Both the position numbers and the translations under genes were made by a program. 62,713 bases of DNA from a virus. This document shows, in pieces, positions 2,921 through 43,300 of the stretch; within the stretch, counting starts at the first letter, position 1, and each line of letters starts with the position of its first letter. Where the stretch lies: IMG/VR virus record IMGVR_UViG_3300028892_001101, positions 1 to 62,713 of that record; one strand, given 5' to 3'. The notes below the pieces were generated by a model, which saw nothing but the letters and a program-made list of their open reading frames with translations, had not been told where the DNA came from and did no database searches.

Positions 2921-2950
2921 ATCCGATCCGATCCGATCCGATCCGATCCG
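2921..2950. repeat. Pentamer array (ATCCG)x6
   Basis: Six perfect tandem copies of ATCCG, each containing GATC across the junctions, mark the left edge of the repeat region. The right edge (4197-4236) carries the same pentamer array in inverted orientation. Confidence 0.95.
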
Positions 2951-2960
2951 ATTTGCCCGC

Positions 2961-3620
2961 CACCTGGGAAACCCCCTGCAAACACCTGGGACACGTAGGG
3001 ACACGTAGGGACACGTAGGGAAACCCCTGCAAACACCTGGGACACGTAGGGACACGTAGGGGACACGCAGGGCAACAACTGCGAACACCTGGGAAACGCA
3101 GGGACACGCATGGACACGTAGGGGACACGCAGGGAAACACCTGGGAGGCAGCCTGGGAAACACCTGGGAAACAGCCTGGGAAACAGCCTGGGAAACGGCC
3201 TGGAGAATCACCTGGAATGTGACCTGGAGAATCACCTGGGAAACAGCCTGGAGAATCACCTGGAATGTGACCTGGAAACCCCCTATTTCATAGTGGAAAC
3301 AACCTGGAGAATCACCTGGAGAATCACCTGGAGAATCACCTGGAATGTGACCTGGAATGTGACCTGGAATGTGACCTGGAAACCCACCCCCTGGAAACTT
3401 ATTTTGAAACACCTGGGAACAGCCTGGTGCCTAGCCTGGGAACCAACCTGGGAAACCCTTGTTTTCTAGGTTGAGCGCCCTGGAACCACCACCTGGAAAC
3501 CAGCCTGGAACTGCCCCCTGGAAACCAGCCTGGAACCGCCCCCTGGAAATTGAATTGGCCTGGCCCCTGGGATTAGCCTGGGAACCAGCCTGGGAATTAA
3601 CCTGGGAAACCCCTTATTTC
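2961..3620. repeat. CCTGG-rich degenerate tandem repeats
   Basis: Short units such as CACCTGGGAAAC, AGCCTGGGAAAC, GGAGAATCACCTG and GGAATGTGACCTG follow one another with small changes. The subregion 2990-3130 adds runs of GGACACGTAGG and GGACACGCAGG. The shared core is CCTGG (CCWGG, a Dcm-type recognition sequence). The units are oriented mostly the same way. Confidence 0.9.
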
Positions 3621-3699
3621 ATAGGTGGAGATTGCCGAGAAGCCACCTGGGAATCGTGATCACGTTTACCTGGGAACCAGCCTGGGAATTAACCTGGGA

Positions 3700-3761
3700 G
3701 AGATTGTACCGATCCCCTTGTTTTATAGGACGAGATCACCGAGAGCCCACCGAGAATCTCG
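3700..3761. repeat. 62-64 bp element with complementary ends, copy 1
   Basis: Begins GAGATTGTACCGATCCCC and ends GAATCTCG, so the ends can pair (GAGATT/AATCTC). The internal block CCTTGTTTTATAGGACGAGA is shared with the four copies downstream. Confidence 0.85.
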
Positions 3762-3793
3762 CTGCTGGAAATCAACGGTGGTTTCAGGTGCAG

Positions 3794-3856
3794 CGAGATT
3801 GTACCGATCCCCTTGTTTCGTAGGACGAGATCACCGAGAGCCCACCGAGAATCTCG
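3794..3856. repeat. 62-64 bp element with complementary ends, copy 2
   Basis: CGAGATT at 3794-3800 pairs with AATCTCG at 3850-3856. The interior is nearly identical to copy 1 (GTTTCGTAGG instead of GTTTTATAGG). Confidence 0.85.
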
Positions 3857-3913
3857 GTTGGGGATTTTGACTGGAGATTTTCAGCTGGGGAAATGGGGGT
3901 GGTTTCGGGCGTT

Positions 3914-3977
3914 CGAGATTGTACCGATCCCCTTGTTTCGTAGGACGAGATCACCGAGAAGCCACCTGGAAATCTCG
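3914..3977. repeat. 62-64 bp element with complementary ends, copy 3
   Basis: CGAGATT at 3914-3920 pairs with AATCTCG at 3971-3977. The 3' half carries CACCTGG instead of CCACCGAG, so it blends into the CCTGG repeat type. Confidence 0.85.
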
Positions 3978-4027
3978 CTGGAAAACACCTGGGAAACGGC
4001 CTGGAGATTGGTGGTGTTTTACCTGGG

Positions 4028-4092
4028 CGAGATTCTAACGATTCCCCTTGTTTTGTAGGACGAGATTGACGAGAACCCACCTGGAAATCTCG
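4028..4092. repeat. 62-64 bp element with complementary ends, copy 4
   Basis: CGAGATT at 4028-4034 pairs with AATCTCG at 4086-4092. The interior reads CTAACGATTCCCCTTG rather than GTACCGATCCCCTTG. Confidence 0.85.
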
Positions 4093-4111
4093 CTGGAATG
4101 TTTTACCTGGG

Positions 4112-4176
4112 CGAGATTGTAACGATTCCCCTTGTTTCGTAGGACGAGATTGCCGAGAAGCCACCTGGAAATCTCG
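4112..4176. repeat. 62-64 bp element with complementary ends, copy 5
   Basis: CGAGATT at 4112-4118 pairs with AATCTCG at 4170-4176. Closest to copy 4. Confidence 0.85.
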
Positions 4177-4196
4177 CTGGTCAGGTTGGGGTACGA

Positions 4197-4236
4197 ATCG
4201 GATCAGATCGGATCGGATCGGATCGGATCGGATCGG
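4197..4236. repeat. Pentamer array (ATCGG)n, inverted relative to the left array
   Basis: Tandem ATCGG units with one variant (ATCAG) near the start form the right edge of the repeat region. The array is the reverse complement in type of the (ATCCG)6 array at 2921-2950. Confidence 0.9.
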
Positions 4237-4309: not shown

Positions 4310-4324
4310 CCTGAAAATATCAGG
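4310..4324. promoter_or_regulatory. Putative operator CCTGAAAATATCAGG
   Basis: A perfect inverted repeat, CCTGA-5-TCAGG, lies nine bases upstream of the -35 hexamer of the early promoter. The identical 15-mer occurs at 26086-26100, ten bases upstream of the third copy of the same promoter. Confidence 0.7.
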
Positions 4325-4333
4325 GAATAGGAG

Positions 4334-4362
4334 TGGACAGGGTTTTATACAGCCGATATATT
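4334..4362 (+). promoter_or_regulatory. Early promoter copy 1 (sigma70-type)
   Basis: TGGACA (4334-4339), a 17-base spacer and TATATT (4357-4362) match the sigma70 pattern with one mismatch in each hexamer. The spacer and flanks (ACAGCCG, ACATGGACAAG) are conserved in two other copies at 18132-18160 and 26111-26139. It drives the small operon starting at 4397. Confidence 0.75.
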
Positions 4363-4396
4363 ACATGGACAAGCAGTAACTCAACGGAGACCAACC

Positions 4397-16446: not shown

Positions 16447-17088
16447 CTATATCGGCCCCCCATAAAGTTGCTGAATCCTCTGGATGTCGTCTGCCCTGGG
16501 CGCCAGTGCGTTGTTGATATACGGAAACATCAACGCCTCTGGGTCGCGTGAATGGTTCAACCCCAGCAAGTGGCCAATCTCGTGACACGCCACCGACCGA
16601 AGGACAACACCAAACTCATCCGTCCCTGGGAGTATCCAATTTTCTGCCAAATCAAATTTCGTTAGCAGCACCCCATCATAATTCTTGGATGGGGGTAACT
16701 GCGCCCAAGCCAGTGTCCTACCAACCCGACCGAACCCTTGCCGGCGGTTGTTGCCCACGGCAATGATGATATCAAATTCACCAGTCACACCCACTTGCTC
16801 AAACGTCAGTGGTGTTACCTCCGACCAAGCGTCAAATGCCAATCGAAATTCCTTGTCCCAGACCTCCCGGGTCATGTCGTACAAATCCCGCCCAGCCATG
16901 TGATACCTCAAATGCCGCCGAGCCCAATACGCCCGCTGCCGAGCAGCCAAAGCAGGAACAGTTTCGACATCACAATATGGACACGGGCGCCACTTGAACA
17001 GGCCACCATCGACATCACTCGCCGGCACCAACCCCATCCCCACCAGAGCAGCCGCACTCAAGTTGATGAATGTTCTTCTTGTTACCAT
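16447..17088 (-). CDS. Exported matrixin-type zinc metalloprotease
   Basis: 213 residues. The catalytic motif 'ACHEIGHLLGLNHSRDPEAL' fits HExxHxxGxxH of matrixins (M10) and is followed by 'MFP', a Met-turn. The N-terminus 'MVTRRTFINLSAAALVGMGL' has a twin-arginine motif and a hydrophobic core, so it looks like a Tat signal; a second candidate feature is 'CPYC' near residue 36. Start ATG follows GGAGGAGAGAA. A protease made with late genes and exported folded could help degrade a protein-rich envelope at lysis or release, or coat the virion; this is inference. Confidence 0.82.
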   Translation of the reverse strand: MVTRRTFINLSAAALVGMGLVPASDVDGGLFKWRPCPYCDVETVPALAARQRAYWARRHLRYHMAGRDLYDMTREVWDKEFRLAFDAWSEVTPLTFEQVGVTGEFDIIIAVGNNRRQGFGRVGRTLAWAQLPPSKNYDGVLLTKFDLAENWILPGTDEFGVVLRSVACHEIGHLLGLNHSRDPEALMFPYINNALAPRADDIQRIQQLYGGPI

Positions 17089-18068: not shown

Positions 18069-18131
18069 TTTCAATTCGGATACGAAAATAAGGGGGCAAA
18101 CGAAAACCCAAGAAAATCAAGGGAAAAGGGA

Positions 18132-18160
18132 TAGACGTGGTTTTAGACAGCCGATATATT
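18132..18160 (+). promoter_or_regulatory. Early promoter copy 2 (sigma70-type)
   Basis: TAGACG, a 17-base spacer and TATATT, with the same flanks (TTTTAGACAGCCGA, ACATGGACAAGG) as copies 1 and 3. The palindromic operator is degraded here (CCAAGAAAATCAAGG), so this copy may be regulated differently. Confidence 0.7.
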
Positions 18161-18202
18161 ACATGGACAAGGACACCAACTTCAACCAAGGAAACCAAGA
18201 CG

Positions 18203-18514
18203 ATGACCACAACCAAACATGATGAGATTTTCCGCCCTTTCAAATTCAACATCCTAAATCACCTGGTTAACTTCAATGCTTTCAGGGCAACTGTAATCCG
18301 CAACGCTGACGGGCCGTGGGATGGCCTCGGCGTGTTCGACAGCGAGGCAGTGGCCGTGCTTGTCTACGGTGAGGGCTGGACGATCGAGGAAAACGTGGAC
18401 AGCTATTACCTCGTCCTGCACTCCGAGGATTACCTTGCCGACAAGACCATCGAAGGGCTGGCAAGACTTGAAGCAATCCTCTACGAGTTCATGCTGCTGG
18501 AAACCGAGGAGTAG
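18203..18514 (+). CDS. Unknown early protein, 103 residues
   Basis: Starts MTTTKHDEIFRPFKFNILNH after CAACCAAGGAAACCAAGACG. Mixed alpha/beta with an acidic C-terminal helix. No motif recognised. It is the first gene of the promoter-2 operon, and a hammerhead ribozyme begins at the last base of its stop codon. Confidence 0.6.
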   Translation: MTTTKHDEIFRPFKFNILNHLVNFNAFRATVIRNADGPWDGLGVFDSEAVAVLVYGEGWTIEENVDSYYLVLHSEDYLADKTIEGLARLEAILYEFMLLETEE

Positions 18515-18563
18515 GTCGAAACCCCTTCGGGGGTCGTCCGGTTGTTCCGGGCCTGATGAGACC
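18514..18563 (+). ncRNA. Type II hammerhead ribozyme 1
   Basis: All conserved parts are present in type II order. Stem II GGTC (18514-18517) pairs with GACC (18560-18563). GAAA is at 18518-18521. Stem III is ACCCC/GGGGT with a TTCG loop. The cleavage triplet GTC ends at 18535. Stem I is GTCCGG (18536-18541)/CCGGGC (18547-18552), and the core CTGATGA is at 18553-18559. Predicted self-cleavage is 3' of base 18535, in the mRNA between two early genes. The first base of stem II is the last base of the upstream stop codon. Confidence 0.88.
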
Positions 18564-18595
18564 ATCAGCACTTAACCACTTTTCGGGAGACCACA

Positions 18596-18991
18596 ATGAT
18601 CGACAGAGTTTACATCACGAGCGTCAAGTTGCGAATTGAAGCGGCCCTGCGAACCATCGAAGAGGCCACTGGAATGAAGTTTGAAATGGGGAGTGTCAGT
18701 TACACGGACAACACCGCCACCTTCAAAGTCGTGGGTAGCGAAGTGTCCGAGGACGGGGAAGTCTTTTCCCAAGAGGCCGAGGACTTCAAGCGGCATGCAG
18801 CCAGCTACGGACTGCAGCCGTCAGACCTTGGCAAGGAGTTCAACAGCCGTGGGAACCTGTTCGTCATCACGGGACTGAAGTCGCGTCGACGCAAGTACCC
18901 CATCTCTGCCACGGAAGTCCGCTCCGGCAAGGCTTTCAAGTTCGGTGCCGATTCGATTGCTGCCAAGCTGGCACTGATCAACGGCGCATAG
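18596..18991 (+). CDS. Conserved phage protein of unknown function
   Basis: 131 residues starting MIDRVYITSVKLRIEAALRT, with CGGGAGACCACA before the ATG. The C-terminal pattern 'SRGNLFVITGLKSRRRKYPI' plus a final helix is one I associate with hypothetical proteins found in many phages. No catalytic motif. It sits between ribozyme 1 and the second RNA element. Confidence 0.6.
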   Translation: MIDRVYITSVKLRIEAALRTIEEATGMKFEMGSVSYTDNTATFKVVGSEVSEDGEVFSQEAEDFKRHAASYGLQPSDLGKEFNSRGNLFVITGLKSRRRKYPISATEVRSGKAFKFGADSIAAKLALINGA

Positions 18992-20435: not shown

Positions 20436-20448
20436 AACCTGGCCGGCG

Positions 20449-20484
20449 CCCTCCCGGGGACATCCCTCGGGAGGGTTCCTTTTT
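20449..20484 (+). terminator. Intrinsic terminator after the DUF932 gene
   Basis: CCCTCCCG (20449-20456) pairs with CGGGAGGG (20468-20475), followed by TTCCTTTTT. Confidence 0.85.
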
Positions 20485-26085: not shown

Positions 26086-26100
26086 CCTGAAAATATCAGG
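26086..26100. promoter_or_regulatory. Putative operator CCTGAAAATATCAGG, copy 2
   Basis: Identical to the 15-mer at 4310-4324 and in the same position relative to the promoter. The region 25971-26085 before it holds no gene I can support. Confidence 0.7.
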
Positions 26101-26110
26101 GAAATAGGAG

Positions 26111-26139
26111 TGGACAGGGTCTTAGACAGCCGTTATATT
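26111..26139 (+). promoter_or_regulatory. Early promoter copy 3 (sigma70-type)
   Basis: TGGACA, 17-base spacer, TATATT, with flanks AGACAGCCG and ACATAGACAAG shared with copies 1 and 2. Confidence 0.75.
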
Positions 26140-26172
26140 ACATAGACAAGAAACAAAACAGGAGACAAAACA

Positions 26173-26404: not shown

Positions 26405-26950
26405 ATGACCATGACCAAAAACAACGAACTTAACAACTTCAAAATTGACCTGTGCGACTGGCTGATCGGTATCAACTGCAGCGAAGCCGCGTGTCACCAT
26501 ATTCACCAGCAGGTCGATCAGTATTTTGCTGAACTCTATGACCACAACAAGGCAGCCGGCCTCGTCACTTATCTGGAAGCGCAGGAAGGCACCGGCGCGA
26601 TTGATTACCTCATCGAGGACTTCGGGATGTGGGTGAACGATACCAAAGTCCAACCCGCCCCCAAGAAAAAGGTCATCGAGGACGACACCCTGAACGCAGC
26701 AGTGGGTGACTTGGACAATGATGACTTCAACGCCCTGCGGGATAGTTATTACAAAGCTAGCGACGGGATGCTTGCCCTCATGGATGCGATGGACACCGCC
26801 GCCAAGGCAACCAGCCTTGCCGCCGCCGGCGCAAACAACTTCAACTGCGGCCGGGCCATTGGGCTGATGGTTGCAATGAATGCACAGTATGCGATCGTCA
26901 AAGCTGCCGTCGAAAAGTTTGACGAGTGTGACTTCGGCCGGGTTCTGTAG
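26405..26950 (+). CDS. Unknown early protein, 181 residues
   Basis: From ATG 26405 behind CACCAACCAAGGAGACCAAGACC; starts MTMTKNNELNNFKIDLCDWL. Helical, with an Ala-rich C-terminal half ('DTAAKATSLAAAGANNF'). No motif recognised. Ribozyme 2 begins three bases after its stop. Confidence 0.6.
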   Translation: MTMTKNNELNNFKIDLCDWLIGINCSEAACHHIHQQVDQYFAELYDHNKAAGLVTYLEAQEGTGAIDYLIEDFGMWVNDTKVQPAPKKKVIEDDTLNAAVGDLDNDDFNALRDSYYKASDGMLALMDAMDTAAKATSLAAAGANNFNCGRAIGLMVAMNAQYAIVKAAVEKFDECDFGRVL

Positions 26951-26952
26951 AA

Positions 26953-27003
26953 GGTCGAAACCCCCTCGGGGGTCTGCCGCTTATGGCGCGCACTGATGAG
27001 ACC
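26953..27003 (+). ncRNA. Type II hammerhead ribozyme 2
   Basis: Stem II GGTC (26953-26956) pairs with GACC (27000-27003). GAAA is at 26957-26960. Stem III is ACCCC/GGGGT with loop CTCG, and the cleavage triplet GTC ends at 26974. Stem I is TGCCGC (26975-26980) paired with GCG-C-GCA (26986-26992) around one bulged C. The core CTGATGA is at 26993-26999. Stem I differs completely in sequence from ribozyme 1 but keeps pairing. Predicted cleavage is 3' of 26974. Confidence 0.87.
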
Positions 27004-27034: not shown

Positions 27035-27856
27035 ATGACCATGACCGTCAAAAACATCATCAACCAAGTTTCAACCGCACTGGTCGAGTACAGCAAAGTC
27101 GACCTCAAGCACGCCCTCTTCGCCGCGATGGAGAATTGGGAATACGGTGGCGTCATCCATTCCGCGGACGAGGACGCAGGCAAATGCTTCCTGACCAAGT
27201 CCGCAGTCCACAAGCTCAACAAGGATGGGCTCATGGACGCGCTGTTGCCTTACATCCGCCACGAGGAGGATGTACAGGCGAGGCAGGAACTCTCCGATAC
27301 CAAATACCGGCAGGGTATCCTGAAGCGTGACTGGGATTACTCGCGGGACGACCGCATGCCCCTGCCCCACGCCTTGCTCGCACTTGAGCGTGGCCTTGCC
27401 ACCATCATTCGTTCCTCCGAAATTGAGTGCGACAAAATCGGCAAGCTGATTGCTGCCTCGTCGGCTATCCACATGGGCGAGGAAATTCGTCGGCATGGTT
27501 CGGAAGTGTTCTACCACGGCGCACTCGCGTCCTACGGACACCAACTGCGCAGTCGGATCAAAACCTGGCTGGAGGCAAAGGGAGATGACCGCATGACCAA
27601 GGACGAGGTGCTCGGTTATTTCATCGATGTTCGGAACGATGCCATTGCCCACGTCACCTCCGACATCAACTTCGGCAGCAGCGACGCCATGTCTCGGGTG
27701 AGGTTGATGGAGGAATTTCGTGCCTCCCAGAAGTGGTCGCGGATTGCCTCGCAGGTTTGCAAGGCATTCGAAAAGGATATGGAACGAGACCCGACGGATC
27801 ATAACCTGTCCGGCGAAAAGTTGGACACTTGGCACAGCAGCGTTAACTTGAGTTAA
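27035..27856 (+). CDS. Unknown early protein with HEPN-like RxxxxxH motif
   Basis: 273 residues from ATG 27035 (leader CCAACCAAGGAGACCAAGACC). Mostly helical. Near residue 200, 'YFIDVRNDAIAHVTSD' contains R-N-x5-H type spacing as in HEPN domains, whose members include RNases of toxin and defence systems. The overall match is only to this motif. If real, it might cleave host RNA early in infection. Confidence 0.5.
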   Translation: MTMTVKNIINQVSTALVEYSKVDLKHALFAAMENWEYGGVIHSADEDAGKCFLTKSAVHKLNKDGLMDALLPYIRHEEDVQARQELSDTKYRQGILKRDWDYSRDDRMPLPHALLALERGLATIIRSSEIECDKIGKLIAASSAIHMGEEIRRHGSEVFYHGALASYGHQLRSRIKTWLEAKGDDRMTKDEVLGYFIDVRNDAIAHVTSDINFGSSDAMSRVRLMEEFRASQKWSRIASQVCKAFEKDMERDPTDHNLSGEKLDTWHSSVNLS

Positions 27857-30665: not shown

Positions 30666-31187
30666 ATGACAAACTGCACAGCATGCAAAGGCGACTTCGA
30701 TCTGGAAACAGAAGGAGGCGTCGCCGGCAACTTCGGCATTCTGCCAATGGCCTTCTGCCCCACTTGCTATACTGGCATGGTGGACATGGTTCACCAACTC
30801 TATATCTGCCCCCACTGTGACAAATTCTATGATGAAGAATCGGAAGAGGATGGGGGCTGGTCGTACAGCTACAAAGTAACGCCGGTGCGGGTTGTGGATG
30901 GGGACACCGTGGACGTGTTGGTGGACTATGGGTTCAACCTGCAACAACTACAACGCATCCGCCTGCTGGGCGTGGACACGCCCGAACGTGGGGAGCCAGA
31001 TTTCGCCGTGGCGACCAAGCGCCTTCAGCATTTATTGGACAAGGCAGCTGACGCAGAAGGGCAGGTGAAATTGGTTAGCCACAAGGCAGGGAAGTATGGA
31101 CGATGGCTGGGGTGGTTCACCTCCCTGGTGGAAGGCAATGAAACAAATGTCAACGAAACCCTCGCGGAGAAATGGCCGAGTGAATGA
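30666..31187 (+). CDS. Zinc-ribbon plus SNase-like nuclease
   Basis: 173 residues from ATG 30666. The N-terminal 60 residues hold CxxC pairs ('CTACKGDF', 'CPTCYTG', 'CPHCDKF'). The C-terminal 110 match the staphylococcal-nuclease fold: 'VVDGDTVDVLVDYGF', 'RIRLLGVDTPERGE' and 'AGKYGRWLG'. The Arg/Asp/Glu residues of the catalytic site (R in IRLLG, D and E in DTPE) are present. May degrade host DNA or process nucleic acid for reuse. Confidence 0.75.
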   Translation: MTNCTACKGDFDLETEGGVAGNFGILPMAFCPTCYTGMVDMVHQLYICPHCDKFYDEESEEDGGWSYSYKVTPVRVVDGDTVDVLVDYGFNLQQLQRIRLLGVDTPERGEPDFAVATKRLQHLLDKAADAEGQVKLVSHKAGKYGRWLGWFTSLVEGNETNVNETLAEKWPSE

Positions 31188-31893
31188 TTTTACCGTGGGC
31201 AGTTTGTTTGCTGGAGTGGGCGGGCTGGACTTGGGTCTTCAACGCGCTGGGTTTCAAATCAAATGGCAAGTAGAACTGGACGACTTCTGCCGCCGAGTGT
31301 TGGAGAAGCATTGGCCAGACGTGAGGAGGTGGGACGACGTGACCACCTTCCCGCCGGCAAGCTGGGCAGAGGAGCACCTGGCTGTGGATTTAATTTGTGC
31401 GGGTTTCCCGTGTCAAGATATTTCAATCGCAGGAAATAAAGAAGGGCTCAAGGGGGAAAGGAGCGCGCTGTTCTATGAAGTCATTCGCTTGGTTGGACAC
31501 CTCCGACCCCGAATCTGTTTGTTGGAAAACGTATCGGCGTTACTTGGTCGGGGGTTGGGAATCGTACTCTCGGAACTGGCCGCGCTCGGGTTTGATGCGG
31601 AGTGGCATTGCATACCAGCGTCGGCCCTTGGTGCGCCTCATGAGAGGGACAGAATTTTCGTCATTGCTACCAACACCGACGGTGCAGGACTCGGCCAACA
31701 ACGCCGGCCCAAGTCAATATGCAAGAAACTCGCTTCCACTGAACGCAGTGGCTGGTGGGCCACTGAATCCGAATTGGATAGAGTATCTGATGGGTTTCCC
31801 GGACGGGTGGACAGACTTAAAGCGCTAGGCAACTCAGTCGTTCCGCAGGTGGCGGAGTACCTGGGCAATCAAATTATGAGGAGGATGACATGA
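31180..31893 (+). CDS. DNA C5-cytosine methyltransferase
   Basis: 237 residues from GTG 31180. Motif I 'VGSLFAGVGGLDLGLQRAG' binds S-adenosylmethionine; motif IV 'CAGFPCQDISIAG' has the catalytic Cys; motif VI 'LLENVSALL'; motif VIII 'HERDRIFVIA'; motif X 'LKALGNSVVPQVAEYL'. The target-recognition region is very short, so the enzyme is minimal. It may protect phage DNA from restriction; the CCTGG-rich region at 3 kb makes CCWGG a target worth testing. A second plausible coding frame overlaps it. Confidence 0.88.
   Translation: MNDFTVGSLFAGVGGLDLGLQRAGFQIKWQVELDDFCRRVLEKHWPDVRRWDDVTTFPPASWAEEHLAVDLICAGFPCQDISIAGNKEGLKGERSALFYEVIRLVGHLRPRICLLENVSALLGRGLGIVLSELAALGFDAEWHCIPASALGAPHERDRIFVIATNTDGAGLGQQRRPKSICKKLASTERSGWWATESELDRVSDGFPGRVDRLKALGNSVVPQVAEYLGNQIMRRMT
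31475..31828 (+). CDS. Overlapping second-frame ORF resembling a methyltransferase C-terminal segment
   Basis: In the +1 frame within the C5 methyltransferase gene, ATG 31475 (AAGGAG 11 bases upstream) opens 117 residues. The sequence includes 'WPRSGLMRSGIAYQRRPLV', 'SLLPTPTVQDSANNAG' and 'GPLNPNWIEYLMGFPDGWTD', patterns I recall from annotated phage DNA-methylase proteins. The two frames may both be translated, or one may be a by-product of codon use in the other. Evidence for expression is lacking. Confidence 0.35.
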   Translation: MKSFAWLDTSDPESVCWKTYRRYLVGGWESYSRNWPRSGLMRSGIAYQRRPLVRLMRGTEFSSLLPTPTVQDSANNAGPSQYARNSLPLNAVAGGPLNPNWIEYLMGFPDGWTDLKR

Positions 31894-32342
31894 GCGATTT
31901 CATGTGGCAGAGCAATAAACGATTTGCGGGCTTCAGCACTTGTTTCCGACAGTGGCGAGCGGATATGTCCCACTGCCGGTTCTTACATGGTTACGCCCTG
32001 GCCTTCGATGTTACATTTGAGGGGAGGCTGGATTACAAGAATTGGGTGATGGATTTCGGAGGGGCAGGCGAACTGAAAAAGCAGCTCGCGGACTTCTTTG
32101 ATCATACGACAATAGTGGCAGAGGACGACCCAGCACTGAACGCCTTTATGAAGTTGGACAAGGAAGGGATTATCCAACTGCGAACCATGCCGCATGTCGG
32201 CTGCGAAATGTTTGCCAGACACGTTTTGAAAATGGTGAACAACTTTGTCGCTGCCGAAACGAAGGGGCGTGTTTACGTCACACGGGTGACGTGCATTGAA
32301 ACTGAAAACAACTCGGCTACTTATCGCCGAAGGACAGAATGA
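31890..32342 (+). CDS. queD: QueD-like 6-carboxytetrahydropterin synthase
   Basis: 150 residues. 'CFRQWRADMSHCRFLHGYAL', then 'MDFGGAGELKKQLADFFDHT' and 'PHVGCEMFARHVL' follow the QueD/PTPS layout (zinc ligands, then catalytic triad Cys/Asp/His). The usual HGH is HGY here, as in the phage subgroup. Converts dihydroneopterin triphosphate to CPH4, step two of preQ0 synthesis. Overlaps queE by four bases. Confidence 0.85.
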   Translation: MSDFMWQSNKRFAGFSTCFRQWRADMSHCRFLHGYALAFDVTFEGRLDYKNWVMDFGGAGELKKQLADFFDHTTIVAEDDPALNAFMKLDKEGIIQLRTMPHVGCEMFARHVLKMVNNFVAAETKGRVYVTRVTCIETENNSATYRRRTE

Positions 32343-43128: not shown

Positions 43129-43139
43129 GTGATATCTTG

Positions 43140-43300
43140 CATGAGTCAGTCATGACAGATGTCATGACAGATGTCATGAGTTTAGTCATGACAAACAACC
43201 TGAGACCCGCATGCCAGATGTCATGACATTTTGCATGAGACCCGCATGCCAGATGTCATGACATTTTGCATGAGTTCAGTCATGACATCTGGCATGCAAA
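43140..43300. repeat. Iteron/operator cluster with TGTCATGACA palindromes
   Basis: At least seven TCATGAC-type sites lie within 160 bases. A 35-bp unit starting GAGACCCGCATGCCAGATG is repeated in tandem (43202-43236, 43237-43271), and its core GCATGCCAGATGTCATGA recurs inverted at 43280-43297. No gene lies in 43003-43321; this cluster and a CCGAGTATA box are the only signals seen. Dense direct plus inverted repeats fit an origin or a repressor array. Confidence 0.85.

Follow-up and report, generated by a model that had tools for sequence, protein, structure and literature searches.

The window analyzed here is a viral DNA stretch of 62,713 nucleotides (IMG/VR virus record IMGVR_UViG_3300028892_001101, positions 1 to 62,713). 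Direct reading of the sequence revealed a complete type II hammerhead ribozyme (copy 1), defined to the base at positions 18514 to 18563 of the plus strand, between two short genes that lie behind a promoter-like site. The genes and the parts of the ribozyme are the following:

18132-18160, plus strand: sigma-70-like promoter TAGACG-17-TATATT, a consensus match within a 51-nt repeat at 18121-18171
18203-18514, plus strand: upstream gene of copy 1, 103 aa, no family match
18514-18517, plus strand: stem II 5' strand GGUC, which shares its first base with the stop codon (direct reading)
18518-18520, plus strand: GAA, 3' of the stem II 5' strand (direct reading)
18521-18534, plus strand: stem III hairpin ACCCC-UUCG-GGGGU, 5 bp (direct reading and fold)
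18535, plus strand: C17, the cleavage-site nucleotide, with a break predicted at 18535/18536 from hammerhead chemistry
18536-18552, plus strand: stem I hairpin GUCCGG-UUGUU-CCGGGC, 6 bp (direct reading and fold)
18553-18559, plus strand: catalytic core CUGAUGA (direct reading and covariance model)
18560-18563, plus strand: stem II 3' strand GACC, 4 bp (direct reading and covariance model)
18585-18592, plus strand: ribosome-binding site GGGAGACC of the downstream gene (direct reading)
18596-18991, plus strand: downstream gene of copy 1, 131 aa, no family match
20448-20476, plus strand: intrinsic-terminator-like hairpin closing the copy 1 gene group

Joined in order, the RNA of copy 1 is GGUC GAA ACCCC UUCG GGGGU C / GUCCGG UUGUU CCGGGC CUGAUGA GACC, with the slash at the predicted break. 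The original prediction had described all invariant hammerhead elements in type II order and stem lengths of 4, 5, and 6 pairs; direct reading bore out both statements, and the covariance model presented below agreed on the first (67.2 bits). The motif starts, as had also been noticed, on the last base of a stop codon (G18514, in the TAG at 18512-18514), and the next ATG, at 18596, is 32 nt past its end. Three helices surround the core: stems I and III are capped by loops, and stem II is open-ended. The cleavage triplet is GUC, and the stem I loop (UUGUU) differs from the usual UNANG. The assignment of copy 1 as a type II hammerhead between two cistrons is strongly supported. Judging from the chemistry of the hammerhead family, the RNA would break after base 18535 and part the two cistrons.

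A second type II hammerhead (copy 2) lies on the same strand within another gene group, which includes the following features:

26111-26139, plus strand: sigma-70-like promoter TGGACA-17-TATATT, upstream of the copy 2 gene group
26405-26950, plus strand: gene preceding copy 2, no family match
26953-27003, plus strand: second type II hammerhead, GGUC..GACC (pattern, stem-checking finder, and covariance model)
27035-27856, plus strand: gene following copy 2, no family match

Copy 2 is placed between a stop codon (26948-26950) and the ribosome site and start codon (27035) of the next gene. Its stem I has one bulged C and a UUAUG loop, and its break is predicted after C26974. Both copies contain the CUGANGA core, the GAA(A) segment, and an NUH triplet. 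Each comes after the first or second gene behind a repeated promoter-like element. This 51-nt element occurs in three copies (4323-4373, 18121-18171, and 26100-26150, with the third promoter-like element at 4334) that precede three gene groups, two of which contain the hammerheads. Our promoter calls are consensus matches, and such sites were no more frequent overall than in shuffled sequences; the call at 18132 is supported by its repetition before the three gene groups. Given the promoter-like sites and the neighboring replication genes, it is plausible that the genes flanking the hammerheads are early genes.

Several other features of the window were recorded. An intergenic, iteron-like array at 43130-43300 combines the palindrome TCATGACA with 35-bp repeats containing GCATGC/TGCATGAG; it could represent an origin or an operator. 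About 1.3 kb (2921-4236) is occupied by mini-satellite-like tandem repeats of 12 nt (CCTGGGAAACAG type), 52, 84, and 104 nt, which end in the 5-nt runs ATCCG or ATCGG and are unusual for a phage. The minus strand encodes a matrixin-type (Peptidase_M10) zinc metallopeptidase with an HEIGHLLGLNH motif (16447-17088; Pfam E = 2.4e-32). A plus-strand gene for a 6-pyruvoyl tetrahydropterin synthase family protein (31890-32342; Pfam E = 4.9e-18) adjoins a DNA methyltransferase gene (31135-31893). Members of the 6-pyruvoyl tetrahydropterin synthase family often belong to 7-deazaguanine DNA modification.

We compared the two hammerheads with chance expectation and with covariance models. The core pattern matched twice in the window, while 0.00 matches were expected from 100 shuffles, and a stem-checking finder returned the same two sites only (0.07 hits per Markov-shuffled window). 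The Rfam Hammerhead_II model, RF02276, which the original prediction had proposed as a check, scored copy 1 at 24.1 bits (E = 0.013 in a 500-base scan) and copy 2 at 23.9 bits. Both values are beneath its gathering score of 37 bits, which is a detection cut-off and not a biochemical feature. The other hits from the Rfam scan of the window (tsr1, mir-H20, and sn3060) scored far beneath their own cut-offs. The check that failed with Rfam succeeded with a model of our own, which was trained on 44 compact phage members with the window excluded; in these relatives, which were selected for pairing, 12 of the 15 pairs vary on both sides. This model scored copy 1 at 67.2 bits (E = 1.4e-18) and copy 2 at 60.0 bits (E = 2.5e-16). 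It also recognized 23 compact members in 18 other viral contigs, part of which belonged to its training set, and none of the 23 reached the Rfam cut-off. The low Rfam score is therefore a fault of the Rfam model, which is blind to the compact subclass, rather than the sign of a poor ribozyme. It could be argued from that score that the sequence resembles a hammerhead by chance or is a dead remnant of one. However, two intact copies with E values of 1e-18 and 2e-16 by an independent model, together with the equal failure of Rfam on all 23 subclass members in the 18 other contigs, leave this explanation with a negligible probability.

To place the window copies among their relatives, we searched viral contigs with type II hammerhead patterns and then checked the stems of the matches in Python. 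The 358 distinct type II hammerheads among the matches listed took two forms, with few intermediates. The first has a stem I element of 21 to 24 nt and a stem II of 2 to 3 bp, which fits the pseudoknotted form described previously (PMC3088659). The second, compact form includes both window copies and has a stem I element of 17 to 18 nt (6 bp with a loop of 5 to 6 nt and no adjacent pseudoknot) and a stem II of 4 bp. We define the compact subclass by a 17- to 18-nt stem I element, a 4-bp stem II, and an A flanking stem II on both sides, and the window hammerhead has all three. Its 4-bp stem II sets it apart from the pseudoknotted type, the majority form in PMC3088659, which we define by a stem II of 2 to 3 bp and at least four pairs between loop I and the bases immediately after stem II. 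When a pseudoknot between loop I and the 3' tail was sought in both copies, neither UUGUU nor UUAUG had a 4-base partner beside stem II.

The placement of copy 1 between two cistrons is typical of the subclass. In most of the 377 compact members listed, the upstream reading frame stops a median of 0.5 to 2 nt before stem II, and the start codon follows 23 to 28 nt (median) past the motif. Among the matches listed, 342 downstream proteins fell into 292 clusters, so the compact ribozyme is tied to no particular gene. Contigs with multiple copies are common, and the copies lay on a single strand in 55 of 56 of them (among the matches listed). Contigs L518, L513, and L079 contain phage gene blocks in which 7 to 9 compact hammerheads separate successive small genes. 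In the relative L544, the gene that follows copy 1 is retained (47% identity), but neither the hammerhead nor the gene ahead of it is present; a hairpin and then a T run precede the retained gene in the hammerhead's stead. In another (L450, 3474-3533), a 60-nt hammerhead stretch is 90% identical to copy 1 within a contig otherwise unrelated by DNA, possibly reflecting horizontal spread of the ribozyme itself. The ribozyme elements thus appear and disappear without regard to the genes that follow them. Among 29 relatives of the window phage identified by their helicase, there was no real hammerhead save in the near-identical L543 (and, for copy 1, L572), and site-by-site conservation is thus unusable as evidence. 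DNA comparison with named phage isolates yielded no useful relatives for the window, L513, or L180, and short, weak matches only for L518.

In its minimum-energy fold, copy 1 does not form the hammerhead. Instead, CUGAUG of the catalytic core is paired with the CAUCAG that follows it, which adds two features to the locus:

18564-18568, plus strand: anti-core AUCAG, forming CAUCAG with C18563 (fold and covariation in relatives)
18553-18568, plus strand: alternative hairpin CUGAUG-AGAC-CAUCAG (fold and covariation in relatives)

We define an anti-core hammerhead by the presence of NUCAG abutting stem II, where N is complementary to core position 7. Copy 1 has this element, with a U-A pair, whereas copy 2 has the tail AACACC instead. 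Only position 7 of the core varies, which makes it the one place where covariation of the alternative helix can show. We aligned copy 1 with 19 relatives, but the rows were chosen for pairing, and only an independent table counts as a test. For that table, we scanned with any base allowed at core position 7 and at N of NUCAG, and stem checks left 131 distinct members (listed). Position 7 and N formed C-G in 58 of them and U-A in 66. The remainder were U-G (3), U-C (1), U-U (2), and G-G (1), and C-A did not occur. In the table of C or U by G or A for these 131 listed members, association was strong (Fisher's exact test, P = 5e-33, kinship ignored). Scans that were blind to the tail gave the same picture among the matches listed: C7 was accompanied by CGUCAG in 13 of 13 cases and U7 by CAUCAG in 18 of 19, the remaining one being a U-G pair. 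The covariation of position 7 with N shows that a second helix, mutually exclusive with the hammerhead, has been selected.

The two states are widely distributed. Among the matches listed, the anti-core spans 94 downstream-protein clusters (54 with U only, 37 with C only, and 3 with both), and five contigs have both U and C among their own copies. In one of these, L518, all seven copies carry the anti-core and alternate between U-A and C-G. The 3' base that pairs with position 7 also closes stem II in this contig, and the 5' base of stem II tracks position 7 (UGAC with U7 and CGAC with C7), so that a single base preserves its complementarity in both exclusive folds, with a different partner in each. 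A complete scan for a purine at position 7 together with NUCAG gave only five contigs. The rare A-U state occurs in two copies in L574; L573 (A-C) and L530 (G-G) were mismatched, and two further contigs were stemless. In bacterial genomes, the anti-core pattern matched 12 contigs, of which 4 (5 motifs) read as real hammerheads; the other 8 (Pantoea/Erwinia) were conserved but stemless and were rejected as hammerheads.

This covariation bears on two simpler explanations. Copy 1 could be an ordinary type II hammerhead like those reported by Perreault and colleagues, with an inconsequential anti-core. Published type II hammerheads are often clustered in prophages (PMC3088659), and copy 2 lacks the element. 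Yet the 131 listed members show that the anti-core is maintained, and copy 1 fits their pattern exactly, which makes this reading very unlikely. Alternatively, the inverted repeat could have been selected as a protein- or RNase-binding hairpin or as a DNA operator, its overlap with the core being incidental. Any requirement for a hairpin or palindrome would yield the same covariation, and the majority of members manage without the repeat: in the tail-blind sample, the anti-core was present in 31 of 211 compact members listed (15%), with no mismatches. On the other hand, the repeat has exactly the length of CUGANG of the core, it directly abuts stem II in 105 of the 131 listed members, and by inspection no extension past the core was seen. 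It also goes with the subclass that has a 4-bp stem II and is nearly absent beyond it (2 of 145 among the matches listed). We therefore regard selection for a binding site or operator as unlikely.

The original prediction had proposed a switch, in which the GGUC strand of stem II would pair with the ribosome site GGAGACC. That proposal found no support, and as a general feature it was rejected on comparison with relatives: the stem II 4-mer recurred downstream in 24 of the 377 listed, against 29.7 expected by chance. GGAGACC is the ordinary leader of the window phage (repeat family D5), and the pairing appeared in one fold and was almost gone when six more upstream bases were included. There is good evidence for a switch of another kind, the pairing of AUCAG with the catalytic core; this anti-core at 18564-18568 had been overlooked, as had copy 2.

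We used a fold model, whose energies omit tertiary contacts, to follow the competition between the two structures. For copy 1, the hammerhead accounted for 85 to 95% of the ensemble at 3' ends from 18563 to 18566 (95% at 18564 and 18565), and the anti-core hairpin accounted for 99% from 3' end 18568 onward. The 3' product of copy 1, taken slightly longer than in the survey of members that follows, had an energy of -17.8 kcal/mol with the anti-core versus -9.7 kcal/mol without it, a gain of 8.1. Across the 137 members listed, the hairpin gain in the 3' product had a median of -6.2 kcal/mol. In uncut RNA of the same members, the two states were close to balance, the anti-core state being lower by a median of 1.7 kcal/mol (quartiles, -2.0 to -1.1), tertiary contacts not being counted. 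In uncut RNA of the window, the model also paired the last bases of the upstream gene (18503-18516) with leader bases 18575-18587; this long helix would occupy the 5' strand of stem II.

On balance, we favor the view that copy 1 is an intercistronic cutter of the compact subclass that cuts cotranscriptionally, after which the anti-core masks the core and traps the 3' product. Once the 3' strand of stem II has been transcribed, the ribozyme would fold and, as expected from its family, cut after C18535. The stem III hairpin would become the 3' end of the upstream mRNA, and the downstream mRNA would begin with a 5'-hydroxyl within stem I, whose hairpin would form its 5' terminus. The anti-core AUCAG would appear five bases later and pair with the catalytic CUGAUG; covariation demonstrates this pairing, and its timing is inferred. 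The anti-core would displace stem II; no other helix connects the two products, which would therefore separate, and re-ligation would be blocked. The downstream mRNA would then retain two abutting hairpins at its 5' end. The anti-core is dispensable for basic function, as copy 2 and about 85% of compact members lack it.

The same element could instead serve as a brake or switch before cleavage: the uncut ribozyme would have a short time in which to cut before becoming inactive, leaving a fraction of transcripts joined. A terminating ribosome upstream or some other factor could then set the ratio of joined to cut transcripts. The fold model favors the anti-core hairpin in uncut copy 1 once 18568 has been transcribed, the median difference of 1.7 kcal/mol in the 137 listed members points the same way, and ribosomes would cover the ribozyme because the stop codon abuts it. 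However, the uncounted tertiary contacts would favor the hammerhead, the anti-core is transcribed after the ribozyme and cannot block its first fold, and no ligand or factor is evident. We consider a brake possible but rather improbable, and we prefer a trap, since only after the cut do the two states differ widely in energy.

Competing folds are a feature of other self-cleaving RNAs. Viroid or delta-type ribozymes are held inactive by alternative folds that involve distant complementary segments of the genome. There, as here, a competing pairing masks the ribozyme, but in the window the competing strand is a 5-nt element directly next to stem II, and it is the core itself with which this element covaries. 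Type II hammerheads in phages have already been published (PMC3088659), and phage hammerheads are also described in PMC6155905 and PMC7761336. The RF02276 type (Perreault et al. 2011, PMC3088659) resembles the window hammerheads in its permutation, core, GUC triplet, and clustered copies between phage genes. It differs in having a stem II of 2 to 3 bp rather than 4 bp, whereas the window hammerheads have a stem I of constant length (6 bp) closed by a 5- to 6-nt loop, no pseudoknot between loop I and the 3' tail beside stem II, a score below the cut-off, and, in copy 1, the anti-core. The sets in A. tumefaciens, A. caulinodans, and C. scindens (PMC3088659) likewise share one orientation and flank single genes or short blocks. 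Such multiple-hammerhead sets cleave in vitro, and the A. tumefaciens set also does so in E. coli (PMC3088659). In contrast to these bacterial and prophage sets, the contigs studied here are viral, and the anti-core is not described for those sets (PMC3088659). Some compact members may already be within Dataset S1 of Perreault et al. With that dataset and subscription papers aside, the covarying anti-core was absent from the open literature on hammerheads that we searched, and on sequence evidence it appears to be a feature not previously described for this kind of ribozyme.

Since the Rfam cut-off misses the compact subclass (0 of 23), phage genomes probably hold many more self-cleaving RNAs than are annotated. 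We think it probable that a widespread class of phage hammerheads consists of one-shot, self-masking ribozymes, in which an exclusive hairpin timed by transcription uses the catalytic core as one of its strands. If so, these would be natural ribozymes that cleave themselves and carry a built-in off-state, acting in cis and proven by covariation. Self-masking would make cleavage irreversible and leave the new mRNA capped by hairpins, or else it would provide a choice of which transcripts stay uncut. The role of hammerheads in phages has been asked about since 2011, and a covarying off-state that reuses the core would give a direct handle on it, because, as a feature under selection, it lends itself to mutation and rescue one base at a time.
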